From IMG/VR virus record IMGVR_UViG_3300030329_003406, positions 1-55,990 of that record: DNA of 55,990 bases. The stretch is one strand, 5' to 3'. The notes below the pieces were generated by a model. The model saw only the letters and a program-made list of their open reading frames with translations, was not told the DNA's origin and ran no database searches. Made by a program: the position numbers and the translations under genes. This document shows, one piece after another, positions 1 through 55,804 of the stretch. This stretch comes from a virus. Every line of letters begins with the position of its first letter. The stretch's first letter is position 1.

Positions 1-98
1 ATGCTTTCCTAGCTTCTCTTGTAGTTATATCAAACCCAGGGTATGGTAGCTCTCCAGGATACATCCTAAAGTAATGTCTAGCTGCATCCCAACCTCTT
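1..98. repeat. Terminal overlap copy 1 (circular assembly)
   Basis: Bases 1-98 are identical to 55892-55989. The overlap lies inside one leftward coding sequence that reads through the joint in frame, so it is best explained as the closing overlap of a circular or circularly permuted contig. It does not look like a biological terminal repeat or an attachment site. Confidence 0.9.
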
Positions 99-2626
99 CC
101 TTCTTCAAATGCTGGGAGTAATTTAGATTTCCATCTACCAACTTCAGTATTTAACTGATACCAATTAAGTCTGTTGCCTGGTTCTTTAGTGAAATCAACA
201 TTACCTAATATAATCTTAGCTAAAGCAGAATTATCTGTATTGAGAACACCTGATACCATTAATCCCCATTTAATAGTACCTACAGTAGGCCCTGATACTT
301 CACTTAAAAGACCATAGGTTTCTTCTTGTCTCTTTTTACTCTTATCTAAAGGAACTAAGATATCATCTTCTATGTTTTTAATTCTCTCTAATGTTTCATT
401 AGGCATTATACCATTAAGATTAAGGTTAGTTAGTACAGATCCTAATTGTAATGCTGCAAATAAACCTGCATATCGATATAGATACATAGCTTCAGATGCA
501 TCCCACTGTCCAACTCTGATAGCATTAACACCACCCCTTATATTCCTAGATTGTTGTTGCATTAAAGACATAGGGTAATGTAATAATTGGAATACCTGTT
601 GTCCAGCTGCACCCATAGCTACTTTAGATGTAACAACCTTATTACCTACAGTATCAACTGCTGGTATACCACGTGCTGCCTTTGGTTTAGCATGTATAGC
701 ATACTCAAATGCATATCTATTAACGAATTCTAACGCCCAGTCCTTAGCTTTAGCTTCAGCTGCAGCATATCCTGTCTTGCCAGCATACTGCAATGTATCT
801 ATATATTCTTTTTGACTAGTATATTGATTATATTTATCTATAAACGCTGTTCTAAACATATGCTTACGAGTAAAATTCTCTGTAAGTCTATGAAAAACAA
901 GAGATTTTTCAATAGTCCAATTACCAGCAGCTTTTAAAGCATCTAAGGCTGGAGATCCTTTGACTGTAAACTCACCCTTGTTCATATCATATCTATAATC
1001 TGCATTATTAATACCTTTAGCTGGTAGCAATCCTTCAGATACAAGTTCAGCAGCAACATCATTAAATAAGAAACCAGATTCTGTTTCAACTTTATCAACT
1101 AATCTTCTCATACTAACAGGTTTACCTTCTTTTGTAACTTGTCCTGTTATTCCATGTAGATACTCTTTATTGGTCCTTAATATCTTACTGAGTCCCATAT
1201 GAGCAGCAGCCATTTGAACACTAGTAGCATTAACAATAGCTCCTGTTAAGTTAAGTCCCATAGTCCTAACAACCTGTATACCCTGTAAAGTTCTGGTTAC
1301 ATTATTAACCCAGTCTGGTCTACTTGTTAATCCTTCAGTAGCTATTTGGAATTCTTCACTAATCCATTTCTCCATGCCTTTTACCCATTCCCCATCTTTT
1401 AATTTGGATTCAGATAAATGTTTCATAGTCTTAAGATAATTAGATTGTATAAAGCTTAGTTTATTGAAACCAATAGCATCTGACGCGTATTGTTGTAGTA
1501 CAAATATAGGATTCTCATTATATAACTGCTTAATCTTAGCATGAGCGGGTCTAGCATGCTCAGGAATAGCTTCATATGTGATAGAGTTTATAGTATCCTC
1601 TAATGTAGATAGCTCTCTATTTTGAGTTCTTCTATCGGAAACATTATTATTCATATATTCTGTCATAACATCTTTCATCTTAACTAGATCGGACATGACA
1701 TGACTAGGTAAATATCCGCCTTCCTTCATACCAATTTTAATTCTTTGAATAGCTTCATTAATAGTTTTATCAAAGTTTCTATACTTCCCATTAGCTTCTA
1801 ATAGCTTCTGATCATTTGTGCCCATATACTTCCATTTAACGGCATCTCTAAGGTATCCAAGGCCATTAATCATAACATTACCCATCTCACCCAGCATAGC
1901 CCTGCTATTCTTTGCAGCTAAATATACATTATCATCATATCTTTGACCATCAGACCTTCTTAAGTTCTTACCTGCAAAAGATTTATTATCTAAAGTCATA
2001 AGCTCTTTAAATTGATTTAATATACTACCATGACCACGCTTATTATCTGCATCTAATGCCTTTACCAAAGCTTCTTCATATTTATGGCGTAAATCTATAT
2101 TGTCATTTTTCTGTAATTCTATTTGGAGTCTTTGAATTTCCTTAAAATGCTTTACTCCTAATGTAAACCTTCCCTGTAATCCAGCCTGTATATAAGCTTC
2201 CCTCATATGATATCCTAAAGCCTTATTATAACCATTAGCTTTACTTAAATTAACACGTTCAAAATTAGTTGCTTTATGTAATTGTTGATAGAAATTTCTA
2301 GCTAATGGATCCTTCCTAGATATACCTTCTGGTACAAAAAAGTAGTCTTCAGTTTTATTATTTATAAATCTTCCAGCTATTTTCTTATCATATTTCTTCA
2401 TTTCTAATTCTAATCTAGCTATCTCTGGTTTAGTTAAAATAAAATTAGGATCTACAGGTTTCTCAAGTATAGCTTCTCCCCACTCTTTAAATAATCTTTC
2501 AGATACTGGACCATCACCATGGATTTTAAAGATATTACCTCTATAATCTTGCCATTTCCTAGTTAAACGATCTATTTCTGATCTATTATTCTCTAAGTCT
2601 GAATCTGCGCATATAAAACTTGTCAT
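1..2626 (-). CDS. 904-aa virion-associated protein, N-terminal 875 residues (gene wraps the contig end)
   Basis: This gene starts at the ATG at 2624-2626, overlapping the stop of the giant upstream gene as TAATG. It runs off the left edge and continues in frame at 55990 to a TAA at 55803-55805, giving 905 codons on the closed circle. The protein starts MTSFICADSDLENN. It is mostly helical and polar at first, then has Ala/Gly-rich stretches that could touch membrane, such as VRTMGLNLTGAIVNATS, and ends in a Lys-rich tail. Its place as the last gene of the ejection block suggests an internal virion or ejected protein. The late segment with FQLLHYPMSLMQQQSRN recalls large polyvalent proteins of marine phages, but no catalytic motif is visible. 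Function is inferred from position only. Confidence 0.85.
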   Translation of the reverse strand, partial: MTSFICADSDLENNRSEIDRLTRKWQDYRGNIFKIHGDGPVSERLFKEWGEAILEKPVDPNFILTKPEIARLELEMKKYDKKIAGRFINNKTEDYFFVPEGISRKDPLARNFYQQLHKATNFERVNLSKANGYNKALGYHMREAYIQAGLQGRFTLGVKHFKEIQRLQIELQKNDNIDLRHKYEEALVKALDADNKRGHGSILNQFKELMTLDNKSFAGKNLRRSDGQRYDDNVYLAAKNSRAMLGEMGNVMINGLGYLRDAVKWKYMGTNDQKLLEANGKYRNFDKTINEAIQRIKIGMKEGGYLPSHVMSDLVKMKDVMTEYMNNNVSDRRTQNRELSTLEDTINSITYEAIPEHARPAHAKIKQLYNENPIFVLQQYASDAIGFNKLSFIQSNYLKTMKHLSESKLKDGEWVKGMEKWISEEFQIATEGLTSRPDWVNNVTRTLQGIQVVRTMGLNLTGAIVNATSVQMAAAHMGLSKILRTNKEYLHGITGQVTKEGKPVSMRRLVDKVETESGFLFNDVAAELVSEGLLPAKGINNADYRYDMNKGEFTVKGSPALDALKAAGNWTIEKSLVFHRLTENFTRKHMFRTAFIDKYNQYTSQKEYIDTLQYAGKTGYAAAEAKAKDWALEFVNRYAFEYAIHAKPKAARGIPAVDTVGNKVVTSKVAMGAAGQQVFQLLHYPMSLMQQQSRNIRGGVNAIRVGQWDASEAMYLYRYAGLFAALQLGSVLTNLNLNGIMPNETLERIKNIEDDILVPLDKSKKRQEETYGLLSEVSGPTVGTIKWGLMVSGVLNTDNSALAKIILGNVDFTKEPGNRLNWYQLNTEVGRWKSKLLPAFEEGRGWDAARHYFRMYPGELPYPGFDITTREARKA

Positions 2627-5600
2627 TATTCACAAACCTTTCTTGATTTCTTAGGCTGCCTTATTTTGTATTTATCTTTACCAGTACCACCCTTCATAGT
2701 ACTAGTCTTCCAGTGCTCAAGTCCGTATCTATTAGCTTGAACTTCAATCCATGGACTATGGAAGCCTGGGCCAAGTAAATTTTTAATAAAAGACATATTC
2801 TCACCAAGCTTATTAAAATTATATTTATTAGTATACATCATTTGATGCCCTGATATAAAGTCATCTACATTTATATCACCACCATCAGCAACTCTTTGCC
2901 ATTCTTTAGCAAATTTATCTGCAATCTTATCTGTACCTTTTGTATTGTAGTAATACCGTAGCATTGTACGTACAAGGCGCTTATTCATGCCATAAAACGG
3001 TAGATCTATTCTCTCTGGACGTTTACCTTCACCTGGCATAGTAACGGTCTTATATCGACCAGTTAATGCAGTTGGTTTAACTATATGATGTAACAGAAAT
3101 TCATATGCATCTTGTTCACCGAGTCCTAATTCTGACAATCTTTCTAACCAACCTCTTCTTTTTCCATCTTTAGTACCATGGAAGAACTCTCTTATAATAG
3201 CTTCCTCTCTAGCTGACGATGCAGACCATTGAAGATTAGCCATATTTCTATCCTTCTGAGTTAAGCTCATAGTATCTCTATAGTTTGTGCTTAATTCCCC
3301 TTTAAGTATACCAACTGAATCTAAAAACTCAAGTCTTAAACTATAATCCCTAAATACAGCTTGTGCATCACCTACTGGGAATGTTAATTTCTGTAAGGCA
3401 TCAGCATACTTAGCTTCAGCAGTATTAACAGACTCTCTTATTGATGGATTCTTTGTCTCTATATAATAATACCCTTCATCCCTTTGATAACTTCTATCAG
3501 AAGATTTATAAGATTTAGGATCTACCCATCCAACTCTTTCAATTTTCTTCCAATCAATTGTACGATCTGCAGCATTAAAAAAGTCAGATCTTACCTTATA
3601 TACATAAACCTTACTTGATGGCTTTGTAGTTTTGGAGAATACCCCAGCAGCTTTCTGTTCAGGACTAAATGTAACAGGCCTTCTTACTCTTTGATTTTTA
3701 GTATCTTTTGCAACTAAGTTTTCATAGTATTGCTTATTAAATGAATCTAACGCTGAAGATATAGCATCTTTACGATCTCTCATCCTTGTAATTTTCTCTG
3801 GGTTAGTAAATCTTTCTTCAGCTAAATATCTTAATTGATTAGCTAAGTTATTATTCTCAACCTCTAATATATTATGCACTAATCCTCTGTTAACAGCGTT
3901 GTCATTATATACGTCTCTCTCAAATTTAACTAAGCTACCATAATTAAAGTCACCATCAGCAATATTCTCTCCAAACAATCTTAAGAATTCAACCCTATTA
4001 ACTATATCATCAACGGCTATACCAGCATTCCTGAAAAGCTTACCATCAGAATTTGTATAATCAGCATATTGAAAATCAGTATAAAACTTTCTATTAACCA
4101 TATCAACTAAACTATTAGCACCTAAATGCTCAGCTGCGCCAATCTTAAGCTTTTGAGTTATACTAGGTTCTTTTGATATATCATCCCTAAAGGCGAATCT
4201 TCTTCTGGTCTGTGGTAATCTCCAAGCTTTACCTGATCGTAACATTTTAATAAAATCTGCTCTTTGTGTTGGATGAGTAATAGCATCAACTTTGTAACCA
4301 TAAAAGAATCCCATCAATTCACTCAATCTCTGCTCTCTTAAAGCTGAATCTGTTATCCTTGAGTACTCTCTAACTAATTTAGAAACTAAAAATTGATCTG
4401 GGTTCGAAAGGAATAATCTTAAATCTTTAACTATAGCCCGTAATTCTGATGGCTCAGGAGGTCTTTTCCCAGCAGTATCATATGTTTCGTTAGTAATGGC
4501 ATTAGTTTTCTTTAATGTTCTAAGTACAATCCTTACAATATCCTTACCTACTGTCTGGTCAGTCCAATGTTGTAAATTTTTCTGCCCTTCATTTTTATCT
4601 GGATTCCATCCCTTTTTAAATACGTTTAACCTGGAAGCATTATGTGTTGTAGGATCCGCTATTTCTCCAGCAACAGCCCTCGAAGGTCTATCCCCTAAAA
4701 CTGAAAAATTAGTAATAGTATTTCTTCCATGCTTAGGATTCATAACCTCAGGTGTAGCTGTATGTACATCTACTCCAGTTTGGGCGGCATACAACATCCT
4801 TAATGCTATGCCAAATTCGTCGCCACCGACCTCTAAGTTTTTGATATTATTTAAATCAAAAATCTCTGTCTTATCTTTAGTATTATGAAACCCAAGTCTA
4901 GTTAAGAAAGATAGTGCACTTCTATTTCCTATATTGGCACCGATAGCTTTCTGCTTTTGATGGACTATAGCTCCATATTTAGAATGCCCTATTTCACCAT
5001 CAACCTCACCAGCAACAAATCTATTCTCATTTAAATTAAAGCCATACTGATTAGATTCATGCCCAGTCTTCATCTCTGCCTTGTATTGCCTAAAATCAAC
5101 TACCCTTCCATTCACTTGTACATCTTCAGATATAGCCCTAAGAGATTTATCTAAATAAACATAAAAGTGATCACCATCATAATCTCTTTGATGAATTATA
5201 CGAGTATCATAATCATTAATCTCTACTAATCCATTCTTATTTTCATTTAAAACTTTCCCAATTCTATGGAATGCTTTATCATAACCTTTAAGTGGTATGG
5301 CTATACCTGATGCCCCCATCTCAAGATTTAATTTATCAAGCTCTACCTTCTTAACACCTGATAGTTTAGATAAGACATATGTCTGCCCATTCTTAGTCAG
5401 TACACCATTCTTTATAAAGTTATGTACTTGCAATGCAGTAAGATTACGAATGGAGTTAATTGATTTTAATACCTTTGAAATTGTTGCTAATTTAGATTTA
5501 TCTGCTTTTGGTATTACAGCTCCAGTATCATCACCACGAACATTATATCCTGCATATTTATCATGCAATGGACTGGTTGTTCTAAAGTTTTTCCCATCAT

Positions 5601-8600
5601 AATTTATTATCACATCAATGCCAGAATCATTATATACGAATGAGTATTTAGATATATCTCTATGCTTAGTTCTATTCATCATATAATGTGATACACCTAT
5701 CTGACCATGCGTAGCGTTAATTCTATCAGTGATAATCTCAGATCCTCTTTCGTTTAAAGGTTTATCTTTGTATAATTTAGCACTTTGAACCTCAACTATA
5801 TTAGGCATAGATAAATCACCCTTTGAATTAGGTATTATGAATGCATCTTCCCCATTCTTTGTTGTAGGCCTTTTTATAAACTCAAAATCTTTGCTTCTAA
5901 TTAACCTGTCAACAGCTGTCTTTAATACAGGATTATCTATACTCATCCTAGATTGTACCATAGCTTTAGCTAAGCCCATAGAACCTTGTGTATATTGAAA
6001 CCCTTGGTCTTCTTTAAGTTGAAATAAATACTCAGCGATCTGTTGTTTAGCTCCAGAATGATCTCTATGGAAATTACTTAGTTTTTCAATAGTTGACTCT
6101 AAACCCTGCCAAGCCCTTAATTCTGCAATATAAGCAGAACTTTGAAGGTCTCCAGTTGAATTAGATATAGTAACACCATCAACTTTCTTACCTGTAAATC
6201 CTATTCCAACAGAAGAAAAGTCAATACTCATTATATTATCCTTTGATATGCTACCTAACTCAGCCATCCAATCACTACTATTCTTTGATATTTTGAGAGC
6301 TTGTATATCTTTACCTGAAAGAGATATGCCAGCCATAGATTTAGCTGCAGATTCTGGCACTAACATATGAACATTCTTAGGTATGTTGATAGCTGGATCA
6401 TAATACAAGAATCCCTTACCTAAGAGATTGTTACCAGCACCTACTGACATTATATAAGGCTTCATGCCATTAAAGTCTTCTATACGACCACCATTAGCTT
6501 CCCATAGATATTTAGCATATTCTTTGCTAATAGGTATACCTCCATCAACACTAGACGATTCGAGACTGTCAAACCTTCCTCTTTCCACATCAGCTCTATG
6601 TTGATTTAAAGATATCTTTTCAAACTCTGAGATATTAGGATCTTTAAGCTTATTATCTATAGCCCTAATAACTCTTTCTTTATTATAAAATGGATCATCA
6701 ACTCCACCCATTGCTTCGTCACGTAATGCTGCTATATTTAATGAATTAGGATCTTTTGCAAACCTTCTAGATAATGCTCTTACATCAGCATCAGCAGTTA
6801 TATCGCCAATATATCTGTTCATATCTTTATTAATAATATTACTTGTACCGCCATCAGCTATATACCCACGCTTATACATATTAGCTAATGTTTTCCTTAC
6901 ATCAATATTTGCTGCATTATCTTTAACCTGGTTAACCATCTTATCAAACTCACCACGCATTGTATGATCGCTATGCATTAATAGCATTTTAAGTTCTAAC
7001 GACCTAGATGAATCTCCCTTTTCCAGAACACCCTCAAACATCTCTTTAAATACATCGCCTAAAGATTTGTTCTTTTTATTATAATAAGATAGCTTTTTAT
7101 TATACCATGCTTCATAATCTTTATTAAGAAGATCTATATTCTTTTGAGAGCCAACAAATAATATTCTAGCCTTAGGAGATAGATTCATAAATGTTAAATA
7201 ATTTGTAGCAGCAGTGGTAACATCATTCCACATTTTAATATCTTTGGCAGTTACTGGCTCACCTGCTGCTAATCTTTCATTAACAAACTCTCTTAAGGCT
7301 CTAGGAGTCATAGTAGAATTATTAATTGCGTTCTGTATATATTTATAAACCCCCTCTGGAGTTACACCACTTGGACCTCCAACTATATCATTGATAGATA
7401 AAGTTCTATCTCTTCCTCCTTCTGTTACTACTAAAGTATTATCAAGAAAGAAGACATCGTATTTAAATTGATCTGCATCTGGTTGATGCTTCCTATTAAA
7501 GAAATCACTATTAGCATTCTTCCTCCCAGTAGCATCACCTACTTCTGTGTTGCCCTTTCTAAATGTCATAGTAGGTACAACCTCTGAATTAGTTAATCTT
7601 AATAGCATGAATTGAGAATCTTTGTCCACCCATTGATCAAAGAGTTCAGTTTTCTCTTTATTGCTTAAATCTTTTATTTCTAAAATCTTAGTCACTCCAT
7701 GATCCACAGCCTCATTAAGCTTACCTTGAGCAACTAAGTCAGCAAATGTCTCATCAACCTTATTAGGATCTTTAAGACTTAATAAATTATACCTCTTCGC
7801 AACTTCCAATGGATTCTTGGATGAACTATGCACAACAGATTGAACTTCTAATTCATTGTATATATTATTAAACTCTGCTGCGTGTGGATCTTTCTCTGCT
7901 CTAGCTTGGGCTATCCTTAAATTAATAGACTCTGCAAGATCCATAAATTTAGTCCAACTCCCAGATTCATTATATGCATTAACTAAATCTTCAAATGGAA
8001 CCTCTTTATCGCCTAGATTTTTAAGCTCTTTCATAAGCTCTTTAGTTAGAGTATTGTAATAATCTTCTGATTCCGATCTACTATATCCCTCTTTTCCAGC
8101 TCTAGTTTTATTTATCAGCTGATTAACTATCCCAATGAATGCATCCTCAGATAACTGGGTATTAGTAATTAATTTATTTATCACCTCATTTACGCTAGGT
8201 ATAGTCTCATCAGCTTTAAATTGCTCAATCCCCTCATCTGGAATTCTTTTCATTCTCTTCTCTATTATTTCCAATTGAGTTAATGCAGTATCAAAAAGCT
8301 CTTGATTTTTATCTCTCATTTCAGACTTCTCAGAGTCTTTATTCCTTGTGGAAAGTATTTCTACTTCATCTTTAATAGTTTTAATCGCTGCTTCATGGTC
8401 ATACCCAGACTTCCCGATATCTTCAGCTAGTCTACCTATATCTAATTGTAATTGGAAGAGTCTCTTATTTAATTTTGACCCCTCAAATTGTATATTTGCT
8501 AATGATTCTTTACCAAAGTTAACAAAATCTTGGAACGATCTATCCTTTAAAGTGCTATGTATACTAGCTATATCAGAAAGATCAAACTTTCTGAATGCAT

Positions 8601-11600
8601 CAGCTGCAGTATTCTCAATTATATAATCAGAAAACTCAATATGCTCTCTACCAATAGCTCTAATAATATTTGTATACATCTCCCCAGCTTTAAGTCTGTC
8701 GCCTTCAGAAGTCTCTGGGCCCAACATTCTCTCTAAGCCTTCCTCTGAAAACATTTTTATTTTACCTTCTTTAGTAATTTCTAGGTTCCATTTATCTCTT
8801 ATCTCTAATACAGTATTAAGTGATCGTCTATCATAGTTCCTAGTTTCCATTACTCTTTTTATAAAATAATCCTTAGCAACACCATCAAAGTTTGCTCTAA
8901 ATTCTACTGGCATTTGCAACCTAAATTTATCAAACTGTTCTGCTAATAACTTTGCATCTTTATAGCTTATCTCAGTTTTGCCTTGTATATTTCTAGATGG
9001 AGCTCCAGCTGTCCATTTCATTAATTCAAATAAAGGAGATAATGAATCTCTTACACTATCAGCACGGTCCCTTACTTCATTTGCTCCCATAGTTTCAAGC
9101 TCTTTATCTGTAAATTTTATCTCATAATCATTAATATTACGTCTATACCTACTGCCATTATCGTTAACTATAAATAATTGATCTGCTGAAATACCAATAG
9201 CTTCATCTGCTACACTTCCAATCTCTTCAGATGTTCTTCTAGTCATTATCTTAAACATCTTATCTAATGCTTCAGATGTCTTTCCAGCTTTAACAAGTTG
9301 CGTGTATGGGTTATTTAGAATATCAAAATTATAGTTACCTACTCCATGTTCTCTGTTTAGAACACCCTTAGTAGATTCTATTATCTCCTCAACGACTTTC
9401 TCTGTATCAGCATTAAATTTATATTTCCTTGTGCTAGCACCTGTTTCTATATAGCCTCTATCAGCAAAGAATTTTACAATATTATGCACATCAGATAAAT
9501 TACTAGCATTATCCCATGTAAAATCATCAATTCTTAATCTTCCATTATTTAATTCTTCAACTTTTAGCCCAGCAGAATCTCTGAACTGTAAAATCATATC
9601 TCTATATACCCTCCATACACCAGCAGCAGTATCTTGAGTTAATCTACTTTGAACACCACCAGCATGAAGGTCTTTAAGTGATGTTCCGTCTTCAAATTTT
9701 AATCCTTTAAGTTGACTTTCAAGCCATGTCAATCCTTCTTTACCTAAAAATCTAGCATCTCTAGGTGTGTATGAACCTTGTATACCAGGGTCCTGCATAG
9801 AAGTTTCCATCATTTTATTTATATCATTTAGCTCAGCAATTAATCTATGCGCTTTCATAGGATCATAATCTTTACTTGTACCAGTAAATGATTTCATATT
9901 AAATGCTTCGTTAAATAGTCTATGTATCTCAGCTCCTACTGGATGCGTATTGATAGAGCTACCAAACTTAGCACTAACATCATTAGCATTATACATTGGG
10001 ATAATATCTTTTAATCCATTACCACTTAATCCTAATAGGTGTAATGTCTCCATTTCTGGAGTAAAGTCAGCCATATACTGATTTAACTCTTGGCGTCCCC
10101 AATGACCTCTACTCTTAGTCATAGCGGCAGACATTAATAAATGTATACCTAATTCTTCTGGATTTAAATCATTAAATGCACCAGTAGAGAATAAACCATA
10201 GTTCATAACAGCTACACCAGCAGCCATACGACCAGAGGATGCCATAAAGTCATAAGCATACTTACCATACCATTCTTTGTTAAGCTTTCTAGCAGTTAAA
10301 TCCCTAACACTGTTCAGTAAAGAATGCACATGGTCCATAGGGACTTCACCTTTATCCATCTTCCTAATTATATCTTCTGCATTTTTATAAGTAGTTTTTC
10401 CTACCTTCCAATGTCTTTTAGCTAACTCTGATGAGTTTAATATATCGAATTTACCACCCTTAAGCATTATCTTTAACAATCCTTTAGTAGCATCTTCTCC
10501 AGCTTCTTCTGTAATTTTTGCATAATTAGACTTACCATAGGTTGCTTTTAATAATCTAACTTTCCTAGCAAGAGATTCGTTTCCACCTCCAGGGAATGCT
10601 CTTATAATAGGAAATGCTAATCCCATTAATAAAGAATGATTTGCTACATGCCCAGCTTCAGCTAAACCAAACTCTTCGCCTCTAGCATGAGCCATAACAG
10701 CTCCACTTATAAGACCATGAGCCCCCATCATCATAACGTCTTGAGATGCCATGCCTAAGTATTTACCTAATACATCTCTTAATGGCCCTGCAGATTCACC
10801 TGCAAACTTAGTAGCAACCCATTCACTTAATTCATTGATATGTTTACCGCTACCCATGTGCTCCATAAAATCGTCCGATATCCTGCTTAAATCGTCTGCA
10901 CCTATGTTCTTTATACCTACATCTTCAAAAGCCTTTTTAATGGCATGCTGTGAGCGTAGAGTAAGCATTTGTAGGCCTTCTCTTCTTTGATCTGCATTAC
11001 CCTTTAGGTTATATATCCATTTTAAACTACCATCATCTGTACCAGTTTTAATTAATCCAAGCTTAACTTTATTATCAAGCTCACTTAACACGGAACTAGT
11101 CTTCTTGCCAGTATTCTTAGCTATCTCAGCAGCAGCTTTAACAACAGCAATAGACTCTTTCTTGCCTTTAACATTGCTTACTGCTTTCCCAGCAGAAGCA
11201 GCACCTCTTTTTATAATACTTTCTACACCCTCTGTAGCTACCTTTCTAGTGACAAGGCTACCAGCCTTACCCATAGCAGCAAAAGGACCAACGATAGGAG
11301 CAAATAATCCAGCAGTTTCACCTATTATTCTCCCAGCTTGACCTAATCTAGATCGTTCTTGACCTTCTTCCATATCAGGTTCAAGATATTCTGTAGCTCC
11401 CCATGATATACCAGACGCAAGACCTAGTCCTGTCTGGCTAATAAAATCCCATGCACTACCCCAATTCTCATCTTTTGAGGCAGAGTCCATAACTTGATCA
11501 AATGTTGGTAGATTAGGAAGAGTAGGATTTACTCTTCTCTCTGTACGTTTGCGGTCTCTTTCGACTCTATTCTTATCTTCTTGTAATTTATCGAAATACC

Positions 11601-11616
11601 TAGTTGGTAAAGGCAT
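2626..11616 (-). CDS. Giant 2996-aa virion protein with a probable double-psi beta-barrel RNA polymerase
   Basis: The N-terminal ~600 residues contain Gly/Ala-rich, possibly membrane-active stretches (about 85-135, 285-350 and 455-490), as expected for an ejected virion protein. A long helical region follows. Residues about 1690-1740 resemble the first (beta-type) barrel: DGGIPISKEYAKYLW starting at D1691, then LLGKGFLYYDP with K1734. At about 2120-2155 the segment ending HQRDYDGDHFYVYLD aligns with the beta-prime NADFDGD loop; D2145, D2147 and D2149 would bind catalytic magnesium. IGN at 2229-2231 and LRMLYAAQTGVDVHTATP near V2282-D2283 resemble the bridge-helix region of QDE-1-type enzymes. 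The Arg-Pro motif usual before the second barrel was not found. The family of two-barrel single-chain polymerases (QDE-1, YonO, crAss-like gp66) is known; membership here is inferred by eye. The gene lies between ejection proteins and the 904-aa protein, which fits a packaged polymerase. The start ATG is 3 bases after the upstream stop. Confidence 0.78.
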   Translation of the reverse strand: MPLPTRYFDKLQEDKNRVERDRKRTERRVNPTLPNLPTFDQVMDSASKDENWGSAWDFISQTGLGLASGISWGATEYLEPDMEEGQERSRLGQAGRIIGETAGLFAPIVGPFAAMGKAGSLVTRKVATEGVESIIKRGAASAGKAVSNVKGKKESIAVVKAAAEIAKNTGKKTSSVLSELDNKVKLGLIKTGTDDGSLKWIYNLKGNADQRREGLQMLTLRSQHAIKKAFEDVGIKNIGADDLSRISDDFMEHMGSGKHINELSEWVATKFAGESAGPLRDVLGKYLGMASQDVMMMGAHGLISGAVMAHARGEEFGLAEAGHVANHSLLMGLAFPIIRAFPGGGNESLARKVRLLKATYGKSNYAKITEEAGEDATKGLLKIMLKGGKFDILNSSELAKRHWKVGKTTYKNAEDIIRKMDKGEVPMDHVHSLLNSVRDLTARKLNKEWYGKYAYDFMASSGRMAAGVAVMNYGLFSTGAFNDLNPEELGIHLLMSAAMTKSRGHWGRQELNQYMADFTPEMETLHLLGLSGNGLKDIIPMYNANDVSAKFGSSINTHPVGAEIHRLFNEAFNMKSFTGTSKDYDPMKAHRLIAELNDINKMMETSMQDPGIQGSYTPRDARFLGKEGLTWLESQLKGLKFEDGTSLKDLHAGGVQSRLTQDTAAGVWRVYRDMILQFRDSAGLKVEELNNGRLRIDDFTWDNASNLSDVHNIVKFFADRGYIETGASTRKYKFNADTEKVVEEIIESTKGVLNREHGVGNYNFDILNNPYTQLVKAGKTSEALDKMFKIMTRRTSEEIGSVADEAIGISADQLFIVNDNGSRYRRNINDYEIKFTDKELETMGANEVRDRADSVRDSLSPLFELMKWTAGAPSRNIQGKTEISYKDAKLLAEQFDKFRLQMPVEFRANFDGVAKDYFIKRVMETRNYDRRSLNTVLEIRDKWNLEITKEGKIKMFSEEGLERMLGPETSEGDRLKAGEMYTNIIRAIGREHIEFSDYIIENTAADAFRKFDLSDIASIHSTLKDRSFQDFVNFGKESLANIQFEGSKLNKRLFQLQLDIGRLAEDIGKSGYDHEAAIKTIKDEVEILSTRNKDSEKSEMRDKNQELFDTALTQLEIIEKRMKRIPDEGIEQFKADETIPSVNEVINKLITNTQLSEDAFIGIVNQLINKTRAGKEGYSRSESEDYYNTLTKELMKELKNLGDKEVPFEDLVNAYNESGSWTKFMDLAESINLRIAQARAEKDPHAAEFNNIYNELEVQSVVHSSSKNPLEVAKRYNLLSLKDPNKVDETFADLVAQGKLNEAVDHGVTKILEIKDLSNKEKTELFDQWVDKDSQFMLLRLTNSEVVPTMTFRKGNTEVGDATGRKNANSDFFNRKHQPDADQFKYDVFFLDNTLVVTEGGRDRTLSINDIVGGPSGVTPEGVYKYIQNAINNSTMTPRALREFVNERLAAGEPVTAKDIKMWNDVTTAATNYLTFMNLSPKARILFVGSQKNIDLLNKDYEAWYNKKLSYYNKKNKSLGDVFKEMFEGVLEKGDSSRSLELKMLLMHSDHTMRGEFDKMVNQVKDNAANIDVRKTLANMYKRGYIADGGTSNIINKDMNRYIGDITADADVRALSRRFAKDPNSLNIAALRDEAMGGVDDPFYNKERVIRAIDNKLKDPNISEFEKISLNQHRADVERGRFDSLESSSVDGGIPISKEYAKYLWEANGGRIEDFNGMKPYIMSVGAGNNLLGKGFLYYDPAINIPKNVHMLVPESAAKSMAGISLSGKDIQALKISKNSSDWMAELGSISKDNIMSIDFSSVGIGFTGKKVDGVTISNSTGDLQSSAYIAELRAWQGLESTIEKLSNFHRDHSGAKQQIAEYLFQLKEDQGFQYTQGSMGLAKAMVQSRMSIDNPVLKTAVDRLIRSKDFEFIKRPTTKNGEDAFIIPNSKGDLSMPNIVEVQSAKLYKDKPLNERGSEIITDRINATHGQIGVSHYMMNRTKHRDISKYSFVYNDSGIDVIINYDGKNFRTTSPLHDKYAGYNVRGDDTGAVIPKADKSKLATISKVLKSINSIRNLTALQVHNFIKNGVLTKNGQTYVLSKLSGVKKVELDKLNLEMGASGIAIPLKGYDKAFHRIGKVLNENKNGLVEINDYDTRIIHQRDYDGDHFYVYLDKSLRAISEDVQVNGRVVDFRQYKAEMKTGHESNQYGFNLNENRFVAGEVDGEIGHSKYGAIVHQKQKAIGANIGNRSALSFLTRLGFHNTKDKTEIFDLNNIKNLEVGGDEFGIALRMLYAAQTGVDVHTATPEVMNPKHGRNTITNFSVLGDRPSRAVAGEIADPTTHNASRLNVFKKGWNPDKNEGQKNLQHWTDQTVGKDIVRIVLRTLKKTNAITNETYDTAGKRPPEPSELRAIVKDLRLFLSNPDQFLVSKLVREYSRITDSALREQRLSELMGFFYGYKVDAITHPTQRADFIKMLRSGKAWRLPQTRRRFAFRDDISKEPSITQKLKIGAAEHLGANSLVDMVNRKFYTDFQYADYTNSDGKLFRNAGIAVDDIVNRVEFLRLFGENIADGDFNYGSLVKFERDVYNDNAVNRGLVHNILEVENNNLANQLRYLAEERFTNPEKITRMRDRKDAISSALDSFNKQYYENLVAKDTKNQRVRRPVTFSPEQKAAGVFSKTTKPSSKVYVYKVRSDFFNAADRTIDWKKIERVGWVDPKSYKSSDRSYQRDEGYYYIETKNPSIRESVNTAEAKYADALQKLTFPVGDAQAVFRDYSLRLEFLDSVGILKGELSTNYRDTMSLTQKDRNMANLQWSASSAREEAIIREFFHGTKDGKRRGWLERLSELGLGEQDAYEFLLHHIVKPTALTGRYKTVTMPGEGKRPERIDLPFYGMNKRLVRTMLRYYYNTKGTDKIADKFAKEWQRVADGGDINVDDFISGHQMMYTNKYNFNKLGENMSFIKNLLGPGFHSPWIEVQANRYGLEHWKTSTMKGGTGKDKYKIRQPKKSRKVCE

Positions 11617-11619: not shown

Positions 11620-13530
11620 CTACTCTCCAATTTTTTCTAAAGCTTTTAGCGCAGCAGACCTATCTATAGGTGTACCTGTCAAGCTCGTATATTCCATAAT
11701 ATCTTCTTCAAAATCTTTCCAGGCAGTTAATATTTGCTCTGCATCTTCTGGGTCCCCTAATAAGCCAATCTTGGTACCAACCCAAGAAAAAGGATTATCG
11801 CTAAGTCCTCTGCCAGCCCACTCTTTAGCTTCTGATCTGACAATGCTAAGTAATTCATTTAACATATTAGGATTTTGCTTTGCTCTATTTATAATTTCAT
11901 TTGCTAAGCCAGTATCCCCTAACTCTAAAAGCCTACGACCACTAATTCCTACTATATCCGCCATTGCTTTTCTTAACTTTGGAGATTCTGACATAGCAGA
12001 AGTTAATCCACTAATAGCTCCCTTTTTAGCTGTTGTGATCTTTGCTCTCTTTGATTGAATATCTTTGGTAGCTGATACTAATTCTGCTATATTAGCTATA
12101 TCTTCAGCTCCAGATCTCTGTCTTTCTAAATTCTTTATTTGATTATTTAATGATATTAATTGATTTTCATCTGGATTCTCACTATTACGTATTAAATCTC
12201 TCTTAGCTATAAGTGCATCAATATCACCAGATAGCATCTCAAGTTCTGTAGATGCATCGTCACCCTCACCTAATGCTACTTGATATATAGCATCTGAAAA
12301 TCCTGGTGATACAGCTTCACCACCTGCAGCTAGACTGTCATATAAAGCATCCATAGTAGCACTATCTGTAATTCCTTGCTCACTATATATATTCTCTAAT
12401 AATCTAAATGCTTCTTTAGGGTCTGTTGTTTGATTTAATATATCACCTACAGCATTATTTACATTAAAGCCTTCTAGCTGCTTAGTTAGGTTTAATGGAT
12501 TCATATAACCTGAATAATCATCTTGCATATTATTTAATGCTATATCAAATCCTCTCATCATTCTTAAGTATGGTTCAATTGTTTTACCTTCAGGTGAATT
12601 TAAGTAACCCATAAATGTTATACCATCAGGTTGCATAAGAGACGCTGATATCTCTCCACCTAATGAAAGCTTCTGTTCGTCTGTTAATGCATCAAATGCA
12701 TCTTCTCCCTCTTCAGAAATAGACATTAAGGACTCTAATGCATCTATATCTGTTCCCTCTTCGCCTTTAAGGGCAGCCCAAGAGGCTCCTATGGTAGCAT
12801 AATTTGTATCTAATCTAGTTGTAAGTTCACCAGTAACATGCTCTTTAAATCTTTCTTCTACCTCTTGTTTAGTTGGAGTATCTAATGCCATGCCTGACCA
12901 TATACGTCTAGCATTTGCTATCTCCAATTCGCCCTTCCCTTCAGCTTCAAGCTTTGGAGCGATAGTATTTTCAAAGTATAATGATTTATCTCCCTGTTCA
13001 AATCTATATGGCATATCTCCTTGAGCAGCTATAATATCTAAACTATGTGAAAGTTCTAAATTTAATCTATCAGCCATAGCATTATTAGCAGCCGCAGCAT
13101 TATATCTAGCTTGCCATGTAGCTCTTTCATCTGCAAGAGCTTTTGTATTTAATACTGATGTTTTAATCCCAGATTCTAATACACCTTCATATCCGCCAAG
13201 TATTTGATCCATAACCTCAACTGAATTATAATTTGAAGTAGCATTAATATCAGACAGATCTTGAAGCGATGTAGTTATTGCACCTGTCTGCTCTTGTAGA
13301 TCAATTGTTTTTTGCTTATAGTCTTCTGCCTTCTCTAACTCTATTTGCCTAGTAGTAGCAAGATTACTTAATTCTAATTCAGCTAGTGCCATCATCTCTT
13401 GGCTACGCATCTTTTCTCTCTCTAATGCATTACGACTAGCATTAGCTTGCATGCTTATCATTAACTGAGGTAAGTCAGCTACAAAATTCTCCAACATACT
13501 AACTGCTCTTGATTGTCTTTTAATGGCCAT
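11620..13530 (-). CDS. 636-aa putative ejection/internal virion protein
   Basis: An all-helical, coiled-coil-rich protein with no signal peptide. Residues about 35-100 form a long Glu/Gln/Lys-rich heptad stretch, and further heptads occur around 430-480. It sits directly before the giant polymerase-like gene with a 3-base gap and behind three smaller proteins of the same block. Size, helix content and position match the core or ejection proteins that podoviruses push into the cell, for example the T7 gp15/gp16 type, but I recognise no family. Role is inferred from context. Confidence 0.75.
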   Translation of the reverse strand: MAIKRQSRAVSMLENFVADLPQLMISMQANASRNALEREKMRSQEMMALAELELSNLATTRQIELEKAEDYKQKTIDLQEQTGAITTSLQDLSDINATSNYNSVEVMDQILGGYEGVLESGIKTSVLNTKALADERATWQARYNAAAANNAMADRLNLELSHSLDIIAAQGDMPYRFEQGDKSLYFENTIAPKLEAEGKGELEIANARRIWSGMALDTPTKQEVEERFKEHVTGELTTRLDTNYATIGASWAALKGEEGTDIDALESLMSISEEGEDAFDALTDEQKLSLGGEISASLMQPDGITFMGYLNSPEGKTIEPYLRMMRGFDIALNNMQDDYSGYMNPLNLTKQLEGFNVNNAVGDILNQTTDPKEAFRLLENIYSEQGITDSATMDALYDSLAAGGEAVSPGFSDAIYQVALGEGDDASTELEMLSGDIDALIAKRDLIRNSENPDENQLISLNNQIKNLERQRSGAEDIANIAELVSATKDIQSKRAKITTAKKGAISGLTSAMSESPKLRKAMADIVGISGRRLLELGDTGLANEIINRAKQNPNMLNELLSIVRSEAKEWAGRGLSDNPFSWVGTKIGLLGDPEDAEQILTAWKDFEEDIMEYTSLTGTPIDRSAALKALEKIGE

Positions 13531-24854: not shown

Positions 24855-27800
24855 TTAATTACATTTACATTTAGATTTTAATTTTTCCATTTCTTCTGAT
24901 AACTCTTGAACTGCTTTCACAAGAGGAGTTATTAATTCTGCTTCTGCTAATTCTTGCATACTATCTTTATTTTCACTCCACATAGGAAAATTAGAATGTC
25001 CAACTTTATCCATCGCTTCCTTTACCTCTTGGGCAATAAATCCATAATGAATTCTATTCGGATTCTTTCTTTCAGTTTCATTTGGGTTATATCCTTTAAA
25101 TTCTTTAGGATATTCACTTGGAGCTTTCTTTTTATAACTCACAGTTCTTAATCCATTAATAAAATCAAGACCTAATTCATTATCACTTATATCTTTTTTA
25201 ATCCTAATATCTGATGAATGTGACCAAGTAGCATTTTCTCCAAAATCAACTGTTATGTAATCACTCGCCCTTCCTATCCTGCAAGTTTCTGTTCCAGCAC
25301 CATCAAAATCATTACTAACATCAGCACCAGCACCTATAACAATTTCATGTGTTACGTCAGCAGCCGAAGCATTTAAATGAAATCCAAGCATAACATTATT
25401 ACTACCAGTTGCTATATTTTCTCCAGAACGAGAACCTATGCAAATATTAAAATCTCCAGTTGTTATACTTTCACCTGCTTCATATCCCACAGCAGTATTA
25501 TGCTGTGCATCTGTAATTACAGCAGTTAAAGCTTCCCATCCAACACCAACATTACCTTGACCAGTCAATGGTGTTCCAGTAACTGATTCTAAAGCATAAG
25601 TTCCTATTGCAATATTTTTTTCTGCATCACCAATAAACTCACCTGCTTTATGACCTATAGCAACATTATCGCCCTCATTATCAGAGTTTGTGCATTGATA
25701 TAAAGCTTTCATACCTATAGCAATATTCCTATCTCCTGTAGATTGAGAGCCTAATGCCTGATAACCTAAAGCAACATTTTTATCACCTGCAGTTAAATTT
25801 GTACCTGCTTGGTATCCAATTCCTATATTTTGACCTGATGTATTATCCTCAAGTGCAAGTCTACCAATACCAATACAATCATCTGCTGAAACTATGCCTG
25901 TGCCCATAGCACCTTTTCCCATAGCAATATTATAATAACCTTCATTATCAGCAGTGTCTAAAGTATTAGAGCCAATAGCTATACAGTCTCTTTGACCATC
26001 TACATGAGTACCACCCATTAAGGCTTGATAACCAATAGCAATATTGTAGTCATATTCAGGGTCATTAGCTGTACTCATAGCTTGATGACCAATAGCAACG
26101 TTATAATTTTCACCACTATCTGCAGCATCAAGAGCTTGATGTCCTATAACCACATTTCCAACATTATTAGTCATAGTGCCACCTGAATCAGCACCTATCA
26201 ATATATTCTTAGTAGCATCAGCTAATTCATCACCTGAAGCATATCCAATACAAACATTGTAATCACCACTAGAAACTAGTGTGCCTGCATAATATCCTAG
26301 ATAAACACCTCCTGTTGCTGTTAATGCAGATGTTGATGTACCACCACCTGCATAAGCACCTACTGCAGTACTATACACTGTTGTATTATTAGCAGCAGTT
26401 GAAGTATCTCCACCAATAAGAGTTTTAAATCCAATAGCAGTATTACCTCTATTATAATTATTATCTGTATCTCCTAAATATTTACCTGCATAACCACCAA
26501 CATATGTGCCTGAAAAAACTTCATTACTTGCTCCAGATAGACCAACTGCACTATAAGCTGCTTCATGACCAATTGCTACACATGCATTCCCTGAATCATC
26601 ATTCAAAGTATACAAAGCATTAGAACCAATTGCAACACAATCACTAACAGCTTGAGCACTTCCCATAGCTCTATAGCCCAAAGCAGTATTATTTCCACCA
26701 CTAGTCGCAGCAGTCAAAGCACTATTACCTATAGCAGTATTTGCATTACCTGAAGTTAAATTAGCAGCTGCTGAGTATCCTACATAAACACCATTACCTG
26801 CAGTGAAATGGTCAGCAGTACCACCTGCAGCTAAACCTCCACCTGCATAATGACCAACACCAACACTATAAGATGCTGTGTTATTAGTTACATCATCTGT
26901 TTCACCACCTGACATAGCTAAATATCCTATAGCAGTTATACCTACATTACCAGCAGTGCTACTTCCATTATCTATAGTTCCTAAATACCTTGCAGCTCTA
27001 TAACCTACAGCAGTTATTGCTGAAGCACCTGCAGCTCCATTTTGTGAATTATTATGATAAGCTGCTTCAAATCCAATAGCAACACTTCTATCTAAAGATT
27101 CATCATTAGCAGTATATAAAGAACCATATCCGAGGGTAGCGCAATTGTCTACAGCTGTAGAAGTATACATACTCAAATAACCAACTGCAGTATTTAAAGT
27201 ACCAGTACAAGCTGGAGCAGCTTGTCTTCCCATTACAGTATTTCCCTCTCCACAATCAGCACTTAATGCATCATACCCAACAGCTGTATTTCCATTAGCA
27301 CTTGTTAAACCATGAAGGGCTGTACTCCCTACTGCAGTATTTCCAACACCAGTACTAACAGTACTCATAGCTGCAAAACCAACTGCAGTATTACCACCTG
27401 AATCTTCTGCAGGCTCAAAAACTTTCATTGTATCTGCTCCAATAGCAGTATTGCTATTTCCATCAACATTTGCAGCTAAAGCTTGATAACCAAATGCAGT
27501 ATTACTTTCACCATCTGCATTAGCAGCCAAGGCTTGATATCCAACTGCAGCATTTTTTGTTCCTACAGTTAATGCTTTTAATGCTTCGAAACCAACTGCT
27601 ACAGCACCATCTGCTGCTGATGTTACAGCACCTTGCATAGCATCATGCCCTATAGCAATGCAATCATCTCCTGCAAAAGAAGCATTATTCATAACATTAG
27701 CACCGATAGCTATATTATTACCATCTACAGAAGTACCACCTTTTAATGCCTCAAAACCAATAGCTATATTATAATCAGCATCATCAGTATTTATATCACC

Positions 27801-28205
27801 ACCTGCTGATTTTCCAATCAATATATTATATGCTTCACCACCATCTGCTGCATCAAAAGCATAAGAACCAACAGCTATATTATTAGAACCATTACCTGCT
27901 GCACCTGCTGAACGACCAATATAAACATTATCATCTGCTGTTGTTTGGTCTTTTCCTGCATGATGCCCAATTAATACATTATTGTCACCACCAGTTATAT
28001 CTTCCCCTGCTTTTGAACCTATTGCTATATTCGCATCTGCACCACTATCTGCATCTGTTGTACTTGATAAAGCATCAGTTCCAATTGCTATATTACTGCC
28101 ATCATCTGCATCTAAAAGAGCTCCTGCACCCTCACCAATAGCCATACTATCTGTAGTGCTATCAATTTTTATTGGAGGTACTGAGCTTAACATTCCATTT
28201 AACAT
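24855..28205 (-). CDS. 1116-aa trimeric fibre: YadA-like head repeats plus S74 chaperone
   Basis: From about residue 25 to 960 the protein is dozens of imperfect 14-20 residue repeats of the type N-x-A-I-G-x-x-A (for example GDNNVLIGHHAGKD and YNIAIGYQALMGG). These match the left-handed beta-roll head repeats of YadA-type trimeric adhesins. The end (about 1000-1116) has SSDIRIKKDISDNELGLDF and IHYGFIAQEVKEAMDKVG, the hallmarks of the S74 intramolecular chaperone, in which the Ser of SDIRIKK and a Lys form the self-cleavage dyad. So it is probably a trimeric spike or fibre whose C-terminal domain is released after folding. The repeats are visible in the DNA as well. Confidence 0.9.
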   Translation of the reverse strand: MLNGMLSSVPPIKIDSTTDSMAIGEGAGALLDADDGSNIAIGTDALSSTTDADSGADANIAIGSKAGEDITGGDNNVLIGHHAGKDQTTADDNVYIGRSAGAAGNGSNNIAVGSYAFDAADGGEAYNILIGKSAGGDINTDDADYNIAIGFEALKGGTSVDGNNIAIGANVMNNASFAGDDCIAIGHDAMQGAVTSAADGAVAVGFEALKALTVGTKNAAVGYQALAANADGESNTAFGYQALAANVDGNSNTAIGADTMKVFEPAEDSGGNTAVGFAAMSTVSTGVGNTAVGSTALHGLTSANGNTAVGYDALSADCGEGNTVMGRQAAPACTGTLNTAVGYLSMYTSTAVDNCATLGYGSLYTANDESLDRSVAIGFEAAYHNNSQNGAAGASAITAVGYRAARYLGTIDNGSSTAGNVGITAIGYLAMSGGETDDVTNNTASYSVGVGHYAGGGLAAGGTADHFTAGNGVYVGYSAAANLTSGNANTAIGNSALTAATSGGNNTALGYRAMGSAQAVSDCVAIGSNALYTLNDDSGNACVAIGHEAAYSAVGLSGASNEVFSGTYVGGYAGKYLGDTDNNYNRGNTAIGFKTLIGGDTSTAANNTTVYSTAVGAYAGGGTSTSALTATGGVYLGYYAGTLVSSGDYNVCIGYASGDELADATKNILIGADSGGTMTNNVGNVVIGHQALDAADSGENYNVAIGHQAMSTANDPEYDYNIAIGYQALMGGTHVDGQRDCIAIGSNTLDTADNEGYYNIAMGKGAMGTGIVSADDCIGIGRLALEDNTSGQNIGIGYQAGTNLTAGDKNVALGYQALGSQSTGDRNIAIGMKALYQCTNSDNEGDNVAIGHKAGEFIGDAEKNIAIGTYALESVTGTPLTGQGNVGVGWEALTAVITDAQHNTAVGYEAGESITTGDFNICIGSRSGENIATGSNNVMLGFHLNASAADVTHEIVIGAGADVSNDFDGAGTETCRIGRASDYITVDFGENATWSHSSDIRIKKDISDNELGLDFINGLRTVSYKKKAPSEYPKEFKGYNPNETERKNPNRIHYGFIAQEVKEAMDKVGHSNFPMWSENKDSMQELAEAELITPLVKAVQELSEEMEKLKSKCKCN

Positions 28206-43996: not shown

Positions 43997-44172
43997 TAAC
44001 AAGAACATTAGACTCAATACTAGATTTCTTAATGCTTAGGGAGGATAGATCTTATTGGGCACATTGGTTTATTTATGTATACTTTATGATAGGTGTATGT
44101 ATTCATTGTCCACAAGTAGCAAAGGCTATTCTTTGGCCATTTATGATCATACATAGTATTGTAAGAGGTTAA
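43993..44172 (+). CDS. 59-aa membrane mini-protein
   Basis: ATG at 43993 overlaps the previous stop. A hydrophobic aromatic segment (WAHWFIYVYFMIGVCIHC, about 22-40) probably spans the membrane, followed by AILWPFMIIHS. Early phage membrane mini-proteins often act on host functions or superinfection; role unknown here. Confidence 0.6.
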   Translation: MITRTLDSILDFLMLREDRSYWAHWFIYVYFMIGVCIHCPQVAKAILWPFMIIHSIVRG

Positions 44173-44441
44173 AAGATTTAAATAATATTTATCGATCGTG
44201 ATGGCTGTAACCACCGATACTATCATGGAATAATCCTTACAGGGATATAACAAGTGATTGGAAGATAAATAACTAACAGACCTTGACGAAGGCGGCTCCT
44301 GAGTAAGAGTTAGTAAAAGGCTCAATAATTTCAAACTTGGTTAGTACGACCCTAATGCGCAATGATGTCAACTTTCATGAGAGTTCTGACTATAATCATT
44401 TGATGAGATATTAAGCTATCTCTAGGGCAGAAAGCCTCTAA
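44173..44441 (+). other. Long non-coding interval, first part, with local hairpins
   Basis: No ORF with a credible start on either strand. Hairpins visible on the plus strand include CCTT-GACG-AAGG near 44283, CTAAC/GTTAG around it, and a perfect GAGATA/TATCTC at 44405-44422 with a six-base loop. It continues directly into the repeated structured element at 44442-44508. Probably transcribed as part of the early operon. Confidence 0.5.
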
Positions 44442-44508
44442 GGGGATATTGACAGGCGAGATAACCAAGGGTACACTTCAAGTACATGACTAACGAGGGT
44501 CAAGCCCC
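44442..44508 (+). ncRNA. Structured RNA element, copy 1
   Basis: GGGGATATTGACAGGCGAG at the 5' side and CTAACGAGGGTCAAGCCCC at the 3' side are shared with a second copy at 45185-45278. GGGG pairs with CCCC and TTGAC with GTCAA, with ATA opposite G as an internal loop. The middle differs between copies. It ends 27 bases before the ATG of the ribbon-helix-helix gene, just ahead of the RBS. This suggests a cis-acting leader, an RNA-processing signal or a small ribozyme; no known class recognised. Confidence 0.55.
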
Positions 44509-44535
44509 AAAGAATTAAATAAAAGGGAGAACAAT

Positions 44536-44742: not shown

Positions 44743-45171
44743 ATGGAAAGAGGATTTTGGATAGTAATAACAGTAGTATTATCAATGCCAATATGGTTAT
44801 TGATGTATGATGAACTAGTACCAGATGTAATAAATGAGACAAATACTGTGTATGTTGAGCCTGATGTAGATTGTGCTGAATGTATTGAGGTATGTCATGG
44901 TGGTACTTATGAGGAAGTGGCAGTAATTAATACTGTGCAAGATATTACTCCTACAATGAGTGATAAAGAACGTATGAAGACAGATCATCCAGTGTTATGG
45001 AATGATATGAGTCCTAAATACTTTAATGATACTAGTGATGGAGCATTTAATGATGCATTTAAGGCAGCTAGAGCTGAGCTTGGTCCTGGTAATACCTTCA
45101 CTTGGAATTATAAAGAGTATAATACGTATTACAAAGAAGAACTAGAAGTAACAAATCAATCGATCGACTAA
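44743..45171 (+). CDS. 142-aa membrane-anchored protein with C-terminal GPGNTFTWN domain
   Basis: An N-terminal signal anchor (about 5-21, FWIVITVVLSMPIWLLM) is followed by a linker with CAECIEVC and a C-terminal module DAFKAARAELGPGNTFTWN plus YKEYNTYY. The A-x-x-A-R-x-x-x-G-P-G-x-x-F-x-W motif recurs as a short domain in various phage proteins. Probably exposed to the periplasm or outer side of the membrane. Function unknown. Confidence 0.65.
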   Translation: MERGFWIVITVVLSMPIWLLMYDELVPDVINETNTVYVEPDVDCAECIEVCHGGTYEEVAVINTVQDITPTMSDKERMKTDHPVLWNDMSPKYFNDTSDGAFNDAFKAARAELGPGNTFTWNYKEYNTYYKEELEVTNQSID

Positions 45172-45184
45172 TACTTCTAACATT

Positions 45185-45278
45185 GGGGGGATATTGAAAG
45201 GCGAGTAACAGTTCTATGAGCAAGATTAAATTACGGGTTTAATGCGCCGTAAACTATGCTAACGAGGGTCAAGCCCCC
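45185..45278 (+). ncRNA. Structured RNA element, copy 2
   Basis: Same conserved ends as copy 1: GGGGGGATATTGAAAGGCGAG and CTAACGAGGGTCAAGCCCCC. The outer stem is five G-C pairs (45186-45190 with 45274-45278). The variable middle holds its own hairpin TTACGG (45231-45236)/CCGTAA (45247-45252). It lies in the 131-base gap before the HNH gene and ends 24 bases before that ATG, as in copy 1. Confidence 0.55.
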
Positions 45279-45302
45279 TGATCAAACTAAAGGGAGATAA
45301 CA

Positions 45303-45980: not shown

Positions 45981-46332
45981 ACTAATAGGGAGATAAAAAT
46001 GATTTAAATATAATAAGATACTAACAAACTTCCCTAGCATACGGAAGGGCAACGCTTAAGATGTGCACAGGCTGCGTCATATAGTATGCTAAGAATTAGA
46101 GAGAGTTACGGCTAAAACCACCATCTCGTTAAATAAGTCGATGAAGCATGATAGTGATGGCCGCAGGTGTCATTAATGTTCATAGCGGGTGAGCAGCTAA
46201 ACACTGCATACGCAAGCGTGGTCTCTCTCTGAAATTATGCTGAGATTAATATCTCACTAGTAATAAATATGAAGTTATTGGAGAAAACAACAAATAAATA
46301 TAATAAAACACAACAAAACAGGGAGATAATAG
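45981..46332 (+). other. Long non-coding interval with pseudoknot-capable RNA
   Basis: It begins with a strong ribosome site (GGGAG) and a two-codon frame ATG ATT TAA at 45999-46007. Then CTTCC (46029-46033)/GGAAG (46043-46047) closes a loop whose TAGCATAC (46035-46042) is complementary to GTATGCTA (46084-46091), an H-type pseudoknot. AGAGAGAG (46098-46105) pairs with CTCTCTCT (46223-46230) around an inner CCATC/GATGG and other hairpins. GAGAT-taat-ATCTC lies at 46242-46255. Group I intron signature strings were looked for and not found. Confidence 0.5.
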
Positions 46333-46503: not shown

Positions 46504-46741
46504 TGCGGCTTATGTCGTGTTCATCTCCCTAAAGGAGGAGGGGAAGGTAGTCGACCATCCCCTTTGTCCTTGCTCAACGGAGATAGAGGCGAGAGCATAC
46601 CGTGACGGTTACGTGGATGCTATAGTCAATCATACAGGAAAAGCCAACCGAGCCGAAGTATATGGACAGTTTAGTATACGAAAAGTTGGTGAAGAATTAG
46701 CTAATAATAACAAAAAAGAAGAAGGGAGTAAGAATGCCTGA
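46496..46741 (+). CDS. 81-aa protein in the ubiquitin-like cassette
   Basis: Reads MSDAAYVVFISLKEEGKVVD, then CPCSTEIEARAYRDGYVDA, alpha/beta in style with a polar Lys/Asn-rich tail. It overlaps the neighbouring genes on both sides. Base composition at its 5' end is richer in G+C than the surroundings. Not recognised; it may be an accessory of the conjugation system or unrelated. Confidence 0.6.
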   Translation: MSDAAYVVFISLKEEGKVVDHPLCPCSTEIEARAYRDGYVDAIVNHTGKANRAEVYGQFSIRKVGEELANNNKKEEGSKNA

Positions 46742-46937
46742 CATAAAAATACTAGAAGGTGGCGGCTTTGTAGACCATAGTGTAACATCAACAACAGTAG
46801 GTGGATTAAGAACTGAGAAGAGTATACCTCAGGGCTCATCTATATCTGTTGGTGGTAGAACTGTAGGTGATGATCATGCTTTAACAGATGGTGATCTAGT
46901 AGCTGCAGTACATAATGATAAAACTGGTGGAAAATAG
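46734..46937 (+). CDS. 67-aa ubiquitin-like (beta-grasp) protein ending TGGK
   Basis: The length and strand pattern suit a ubiquitin/ThiS/MoaD-like fold: IKILEGGGFVDH, TTVGGLRTEKSI, ISVGGRTVGDD, then ALTDGDLVAAVHND. The final L-x-D-G-D-x-V-A strand followed by a Gly-Gly matches the signature of sulfur-carrier and prokaryotic ubiquitin-like proteins. The tail is TGGK, so removal of one Lys would expose the diglycine for activation. Clear GGGAG ribosome site. Downstream genes encode E2-, JAMM- and E1-like proteins, which strongly supports this role. Targets unknown. Confidence 0.75.
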   Translation: MPDIKILEGGGFVDHSVTSTTVGGLRTEKSIPQGSSISVGGRTVGDDHALTDGDLVAAVHNDKTGGK

Positions 46938-46965
46938 AATGGCTAACCACGCAAGGTGAATTCTA

Positions 46966-47058
46966 GAGGGACTAATTGATTATTTGGGGGATGCTGAATG
47001 AGAAGGCAGTATCAGATTAGGCTTTTACGTGACTAAAGCTATAATTAATTAGTTCCTC
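46966..47058 (+). ncRNA. Closed-stem structured RNA candidate after the Ubl gene
   Basis: GAGGGACTAATTGATTAT (46966-46983) pairs with 47041-47058 over 18 positions, 16 Watson-Crick and 2 G-U. Inside, GATGCTG (46990-46996) pairs with CAGTATC (47007-47013), and GCTTT (47021-47025) with AAAGC (47035-47039), giving a three-way junction. It fills the 145-base gap before the next ribosome site. No known class recognised. Confidence 0.55.
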
Positions 47059-47082
47059 CCATCATAAACATAAGGAGATAAT

Positions 47083-55777: not shown

Positions 55778-55804
55778 AGGGGGAGGTTTTTCCTGCCTTC
55801 CCTT
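55778..55804. terminator. Hairpin between the converging operons
   Basis: AGGGGGAGG (55778-55786) pairs with CCTTCCCTT (55796-55804) around a T-rich nine-base loop, with two G-T pairs. It lies between the 55-aa gene stop and the stop of the leftward 904-aa gene. No strong T-run on either side, so termination efficiency is uncertain. Confidence 0.45.

Follow-up and report, generated by a model that had tools for sequence, protein, structure and literature searches.

The window, that is, the whole stretch of DNA analysed here, corresponds to the 55,990-base IMG/VR virus record IMGVR_UViG_3300030329_003406, and the second-to-last gene of its late operon encodes a giant protein (the giant; Table 1) with the features of a two-barrel RNA polymerase. 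The late genes run leftward from the terminase (39 kb), with the portal, scaffold, capsid and tail genes next, and end with a gene for a 636-residue protein, the giant and a gene of about 875 codons; this late block converges on rightward early genes (43-55.6 kb). The open reading frame (ORF) that a preliminary description had assigned to the giant is real, with the correction that it lies on the minus strand. The last 99 bases (55892-55990) repeat the first 99 with one mismatch and the 875-residue gene crosses the junction, so the window probably represents a whole genome that closes into a circle.

Table 1 Features of the giant gene and its immediate neighbours in the window
Feature	Position	Strand	Basis or remark
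Last late-operon gene	2..2626	-	875 aa to record edge; continues over junction (55803-55988)
Giant ORF, N-terminal module and predicted RNA polymerase core	2626..11616	-	2,996 aa, ATG start
N-terminal region, residues 1-1399	7420..11616	-	Small conservation peak at 401-500
Modelled RNA polymerase core, residues 1400-2500	4117..7419	-	AlphaFold2 and PDB 6VR4 match
First barrel (DPBB-B-like) strands, residues 1718-1816	6169..6465	-	Model secondary structure; hhalign to gp66
K1719, invariant; spacing counterpart of gp66 K1012	6460..6462	-	
K1734, invariant; spacing counterpart of gp66 K1027	6415..6417	-	
K1759, invariant; paired by hhalign with gp66 K1065	6340..6342	-	
Second barrel (DPBB-A-like) strands, residues 2072-2154	5155..5403	-	Model; hhalign to gp66
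P2108, invariant, 37 residues ahead of DxDxD, as in gp66	5293..5295	-	
DYDGD, residues 2145-2149, putative Mg-binding loop	5170..5184	-	Sequence, conservation
30-residue helix, residues 2212-2241, likely bridge helix	4894..4983	-	Model secondary structure
Helix adjoining invariant D2283, residues 2266-2283 (earlier candidate bridge helix)	4768..4821	-	Model, conservation
636-aa gene just upstream of the giant	11620..13530	-	ORF; synteny

Conservation of the giant among its relatives

Direct queries with the giant gave no significant match in Pfam, PHROGs, NCBIfam, PDB sequences, INPHARED or IMG/VR. Relatives were found through the portal instead, which led to 210 IMG/VR stretches; the portal-linked genomes hold giants of about 2,870-3,065 residues, and alignments of the cores of these giants yielded 72 related IMG/VR loci. 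The giants of these relatives span about 2,870-3,210 residues. Conservation was counted over 43 non-redundant full-length giants, with a separate alignment of 59 cores.

The preliminary description had singled out D2145-Y-D2147-G-D2149 and K1734, and both sit at the residues it gave. All 43 giants keep D2145, D2147 and D2149 together with K1719, K1734, K1759, P2108, N2134 and D2283, and the distance from the proline to the first aspartate is 35-38 in 42 of them. Near-invariant columns number only 28 across 2,996 positions, and 13 of the 28 fall within residues 1701-1800 and 2101-2200, which make up 6.7% of the length. In the alignment of cores only 11 columns are invariant, including all of the residues just named; the aspartate triad is present in 59 of 59 sequences while the residues between vary (DNDGD, DFDLD, DFDGD, DYDGD, DFDVD and others). 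Taken alone, the DxDxD motif is weak evidence and within chance, D.D.D occurring six times and D.DGD twice in the 11,103 residues of window frames of at least 300 residues; it is the conservation of the triad and the lysines in 43 of 43 relatives that raises it above that level. Furthermore, comparison of their profiles showed three subfamilies of giants to be homologous to one another (E 7e-18 to 1e-41), and hence this conservation is among true homologues.

The cores of the relatives are 13-29% identical to that of the window protein, set against a portal identity of 63-90% (ten members), and thus the polymerase evolves very fast, as has also been reported for the polymerases of crAss-like phages (PMC7886860). 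One relative (G009; L103/L104, 56,637 bp) apparently carries the giant as two ORFs of 1,521 and 1,435 residues. The enzyme at first seemed absent from this genome. The second ORF, a candidate too divergent to be matched by the family profile, contains by eye RSP-x37-DFDID, a layout identical to that of gp66, the virion RNA polymerase of the crAss-like phage phi14:2. The apparent separation of the two halves suggests that the N-terminal region of about 1,400 residues is a separable ejection or structural module. Residues 1-1399 of the window protein showed no transmembrane-like stretch and no known domain in Pfam.

Predicted fold and kinship of the polymerase core

An AlphaFold2 model of residues 1400-2500, built from 59 sequences, reached a predicted local distance difference test score of 82.5 and a predicted template modelling (TM) score of 0.84; a second, tighter model of residues 1680-2299 reached a predicted TM-score of 0.85. 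When the larger model was compared with the PDB by Foldseek, the best match was 6VR4, the phi14:2 virion RNA polymerase (E 1.0e-6, probability 1.00), which was also the sole match below 0.001, and nearly all other listed matches were RNA polymerases. The tighter model matched gp66 (E 2.8e-5, probability 1.00) and then QDE-1 (PDB 2J7N and others; E 1.9e-3), and all of its 50 best PDB matches were two-barrel RNA polymerases. Among predicted viral structures, the larger model was closest to unnamed viral proteins (2e-23 and 6e-18; TM 0.61 and 0.52), followed by proteins that included giants from uncultured phages of crAss type. A profile of the 59 cores matched no polymerase among PDB sequences. 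With two-barrel RNA polymerases, led by gp66 and QDE-1, as the matches of the two models, and with invariant barrel residues, the earlier prediction of a two-barrel RNA polymerase is supported. Fold matching and conservation point to two double-psi barrels with a putative facing of lysines and aspartates. The bridge helix had been placed near 2270-2290, where the model has a shorter helix (2266-2282); it is probably the 30-residue helix after the second barrel, at 2212-2241, and the earlier position misplaced.

Comparison with gp66, made with a profile of 74 crAss-type polymerases, revealed a common layout in which both barrels lie in one chain, the lysine barrel preceding the DxDxD barrel. 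Conserved in this profile are K1012, K1027, K1065, P1324 and D1361/D1363/D1365 of gp66; the three lysines occur in the same order as those of the giant, and the gp66 motif reads DFDID. The spacings are equal: 15 residues separate K1012 from K1027 and likewise K1719 from K1734, and 37 separate P1324 from D1361 and P2108 from D2145. Aligned by hhalign, like barrels pair with p values of 8.6e-4 (first) and 3.6e-4 (second), against 0.3 and 0.63 for crosswise pairings. Little sequence similarity remains between the two proteins, and they differ in size, gp66 having 2,180 residues in a 100-kb crassvirus and the giant 2,996 in about 56 kb.

In the first barrel of QDE-1, K743 lies 24 residues from K767 (PMC1750930), as against 25 for K1734 and K1759 in the window. 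Unlike the giant, QDE-1 is a cellular enzyme, RNA- and DNA-templated, without an ejection module. The modelled fold supports gp66 and QDE-1 as the closest kin of the giant polymerase.

Two other types of virion polymerase were considered and set aside. In Thermus phage P23-45, gp96 is a giant virion protein in which a two-barrel polymerase is fused to a tape measure (PMC10770324). In gp96 the polymerase is N-terminal and the tape measure carries a metallopeptidase, whereas the core of the giant lies in its second half (1400-2500) and no Pfam peptidase match was found; the fold match to gp96 was weak (E 1.2 and 0.039 in two Foldseek searches) and hhalign of the family against it gave no match. 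The virion RNA polymerase of phage N4, likened to the giant in its mode of working, has a T7-type fold. No such T7-like single-subunit polymerase was matched in Pfam or appeared among the fold matches of either model.

Proposed packaging and ejection, and alternative readings

It is highly probable, in our judgement, that the giant is a single-chain two-barrel RNA polymerase of the gp66/QDE-1 type, placed behind an N-terminal region of about 1,400 residues, and that this protein would be packaged, ejected and used to transcribe the rightward early genes. The virions of crAss-like phages contain their polymerases, which transcribe early genes (PMC10136315; PMC7886860), and N4 is a podovirus with an ejected polymerase of about 3,500 residues (PMC12633501). 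By analogy with these systems and from gene position, we infer that the giant would travel in the phage head together with its gene neighbours, that these proteins would be ejected with the DNA, and that the injected giant would then transcribe the early genes at 43-55.6 kb; its polymerase activity, its use of DNA as template and its choice of early genes we likewise infer. The gene layout of phi14:2 is the same, gp67, gp66 and gp65 ending a late block that converges on early genes and gp66 being second-to-last; those three proteins are annotated from virion proteomics. In most relatives the gene next after the giant encodes about 870-1,055 residues; the product of its window counterpart, the last late-operon gene, is a probable co-packaged protein, and the 636-residue product on the other side is probably co-packaged or structural. 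Since a crAss-type polymerase is of the kind injected into hosts, these small phages probably supply the infected cell with a transcription enzyme of their own. Counts of sigma-70-like sites, scored as possible early promoters, showed no excess (62 versus 62.6 in shuffles).

Several observations weigh against this assignment. Whole-core similarity to gp66 is marginal (p 0.03; the score was 30.4, and 30 shuffles of the columns reached no more than 18.8), and the arginine that precedes the proline in gp66 is missing before P2108. Foldseek PDB matches besides gp66 fall short of E 0.001, and the TM-scores of the best PDB matches are modest (0.28-0.36); therefore, only the catalytic core is common to the giant and solved structures.

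Encoded as it is in the late operon, the giant might instead be a working but unpackaged polymerase, made late to transcribe late genes, and non-virion two-barrel polymerases such as P23-45 gp64 do exist (PMC10770324). We regard this as unlikely, as a polymerase would hardly be expected at the end of the operon that it serves, and the large N-terminal fusion and gp66-like gene position suit cargo proteins. The very fast divergence of the giant would fit a structural or ejection protein whose polymerase domain has degenerated and become inactive, but the putative catalytic aspartates and lysines are invariant in 43 of 43 giants while nearly all else varies, and even the split version keeps P-x37-DFDID, making inactivity very improbable. 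Least credible of all is a DNA polymerase related to archaeal PolD, which is likewise built on two double-psi barrels (PMC10770324): none of the window proteins scanned was recognisable as a DNA polymerase, but PolD is absent from the 50 best PDB matches in both fold searches and a late structural gene position is ill-suited to a replicase.

Phage lineage and early region

Membership of the order Crassvirales was rejected on the head genes. The terminase (TerL), portal and capsid of the window belong to phrog_38, phrog_156 and phrog_1328, and those of phi14:2 to phrog_6681, 6547 and 11589; the polymerase retained as the preferred reading is thus of crAss type in a non-crassvirus lineage, and the earlier suggestion of a new lineage stands. 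This lineage is known only from metagenomes, with more than 200 portal matches in IMG/VR. The family portal is found in no INPHARED record; VvAW1 and APSE are among the phages whose portals gave the best matches, partial ones at about 25%. Podovirus morphology is likely because the portal matches are P22-like and no tail-tube or tape-measure match was seen. Roseobacter phage CRP-810, with a genome of 57.7 kb and a distant match to the capsid, was discarded as a cultured relative, its 2,016-residue gp35 lacking DxDxD and giving no profile match. The only cellular-genome match, a portal 60% identical on a contig binned in the Flavobacteriales metagenome-assembled genome TMED123, weakly indicates Flavobacteriales as host.

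Taken together, our findings make it fairly likely that the giants are a widespread family of their own among virion two-barrel RNA polymerases, outside Crassvirales and in podovirus-type phages of about 50-60 kb, with an ejection module of about 1,400 residues fused to the polymerase (in one relative or more, the module has its own gene). Injected two-barrel polymerases are already known from crAss-like phages, jumbo phages and the P23-45 group. Two-barrel polymerases have been sorted into 23 families (PMC10770324); relative to the collections searched here, the giant family appears new. If the family is as we propose, crAss-type injected polymerases have been exchanged between, or are older than, unrelated phage lineages. 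A polymerase of about 3,000 residues in phages of about 56 kb with different head genes would widen the range of such enzymes and add a deep branch beside gp66 and QDE-1, with a bearing on the origin of RNA-interference polymerases. It would also allow early transcription independent of the host to be tested in a lineage without a close match in the phage record collection searched.

Elsewhere in the late block, a 1,116-residue protein with many 'AIG' repeats (24855-28205, minus strand) matches the tail spike family phrog_4636 (E 2.9e-92). Between early genes lie several noncoding stretches (44170-44530, 45150-45300, 45990-46330 and 46940-47080), two of which carry near-identical 'ctaacgagggtcaagccc' boxes. 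Rfam gave nothing at its gathering threshold, these stretches included; they are possibly structured RNAs or intron-like elements. Further along, at 49108-50624 (plus strand), the gene for a JAB-domain protein (PF14464, E 2.8e-5) has immediately after it one for a ThiF/E1-like protein (PF00899, E 2.5e-20; E1-E2 as its best PADLOC match, 8e-16), and upstream of the pair lie genes for a 476-residue protein of unknown function (47678-49108) and a 67-residue protein (46734-46937). The group resembles a module for ubiquitin-like conjugation, placed in the early region of the phage, and G009 has ORFs of similar size in the same order.
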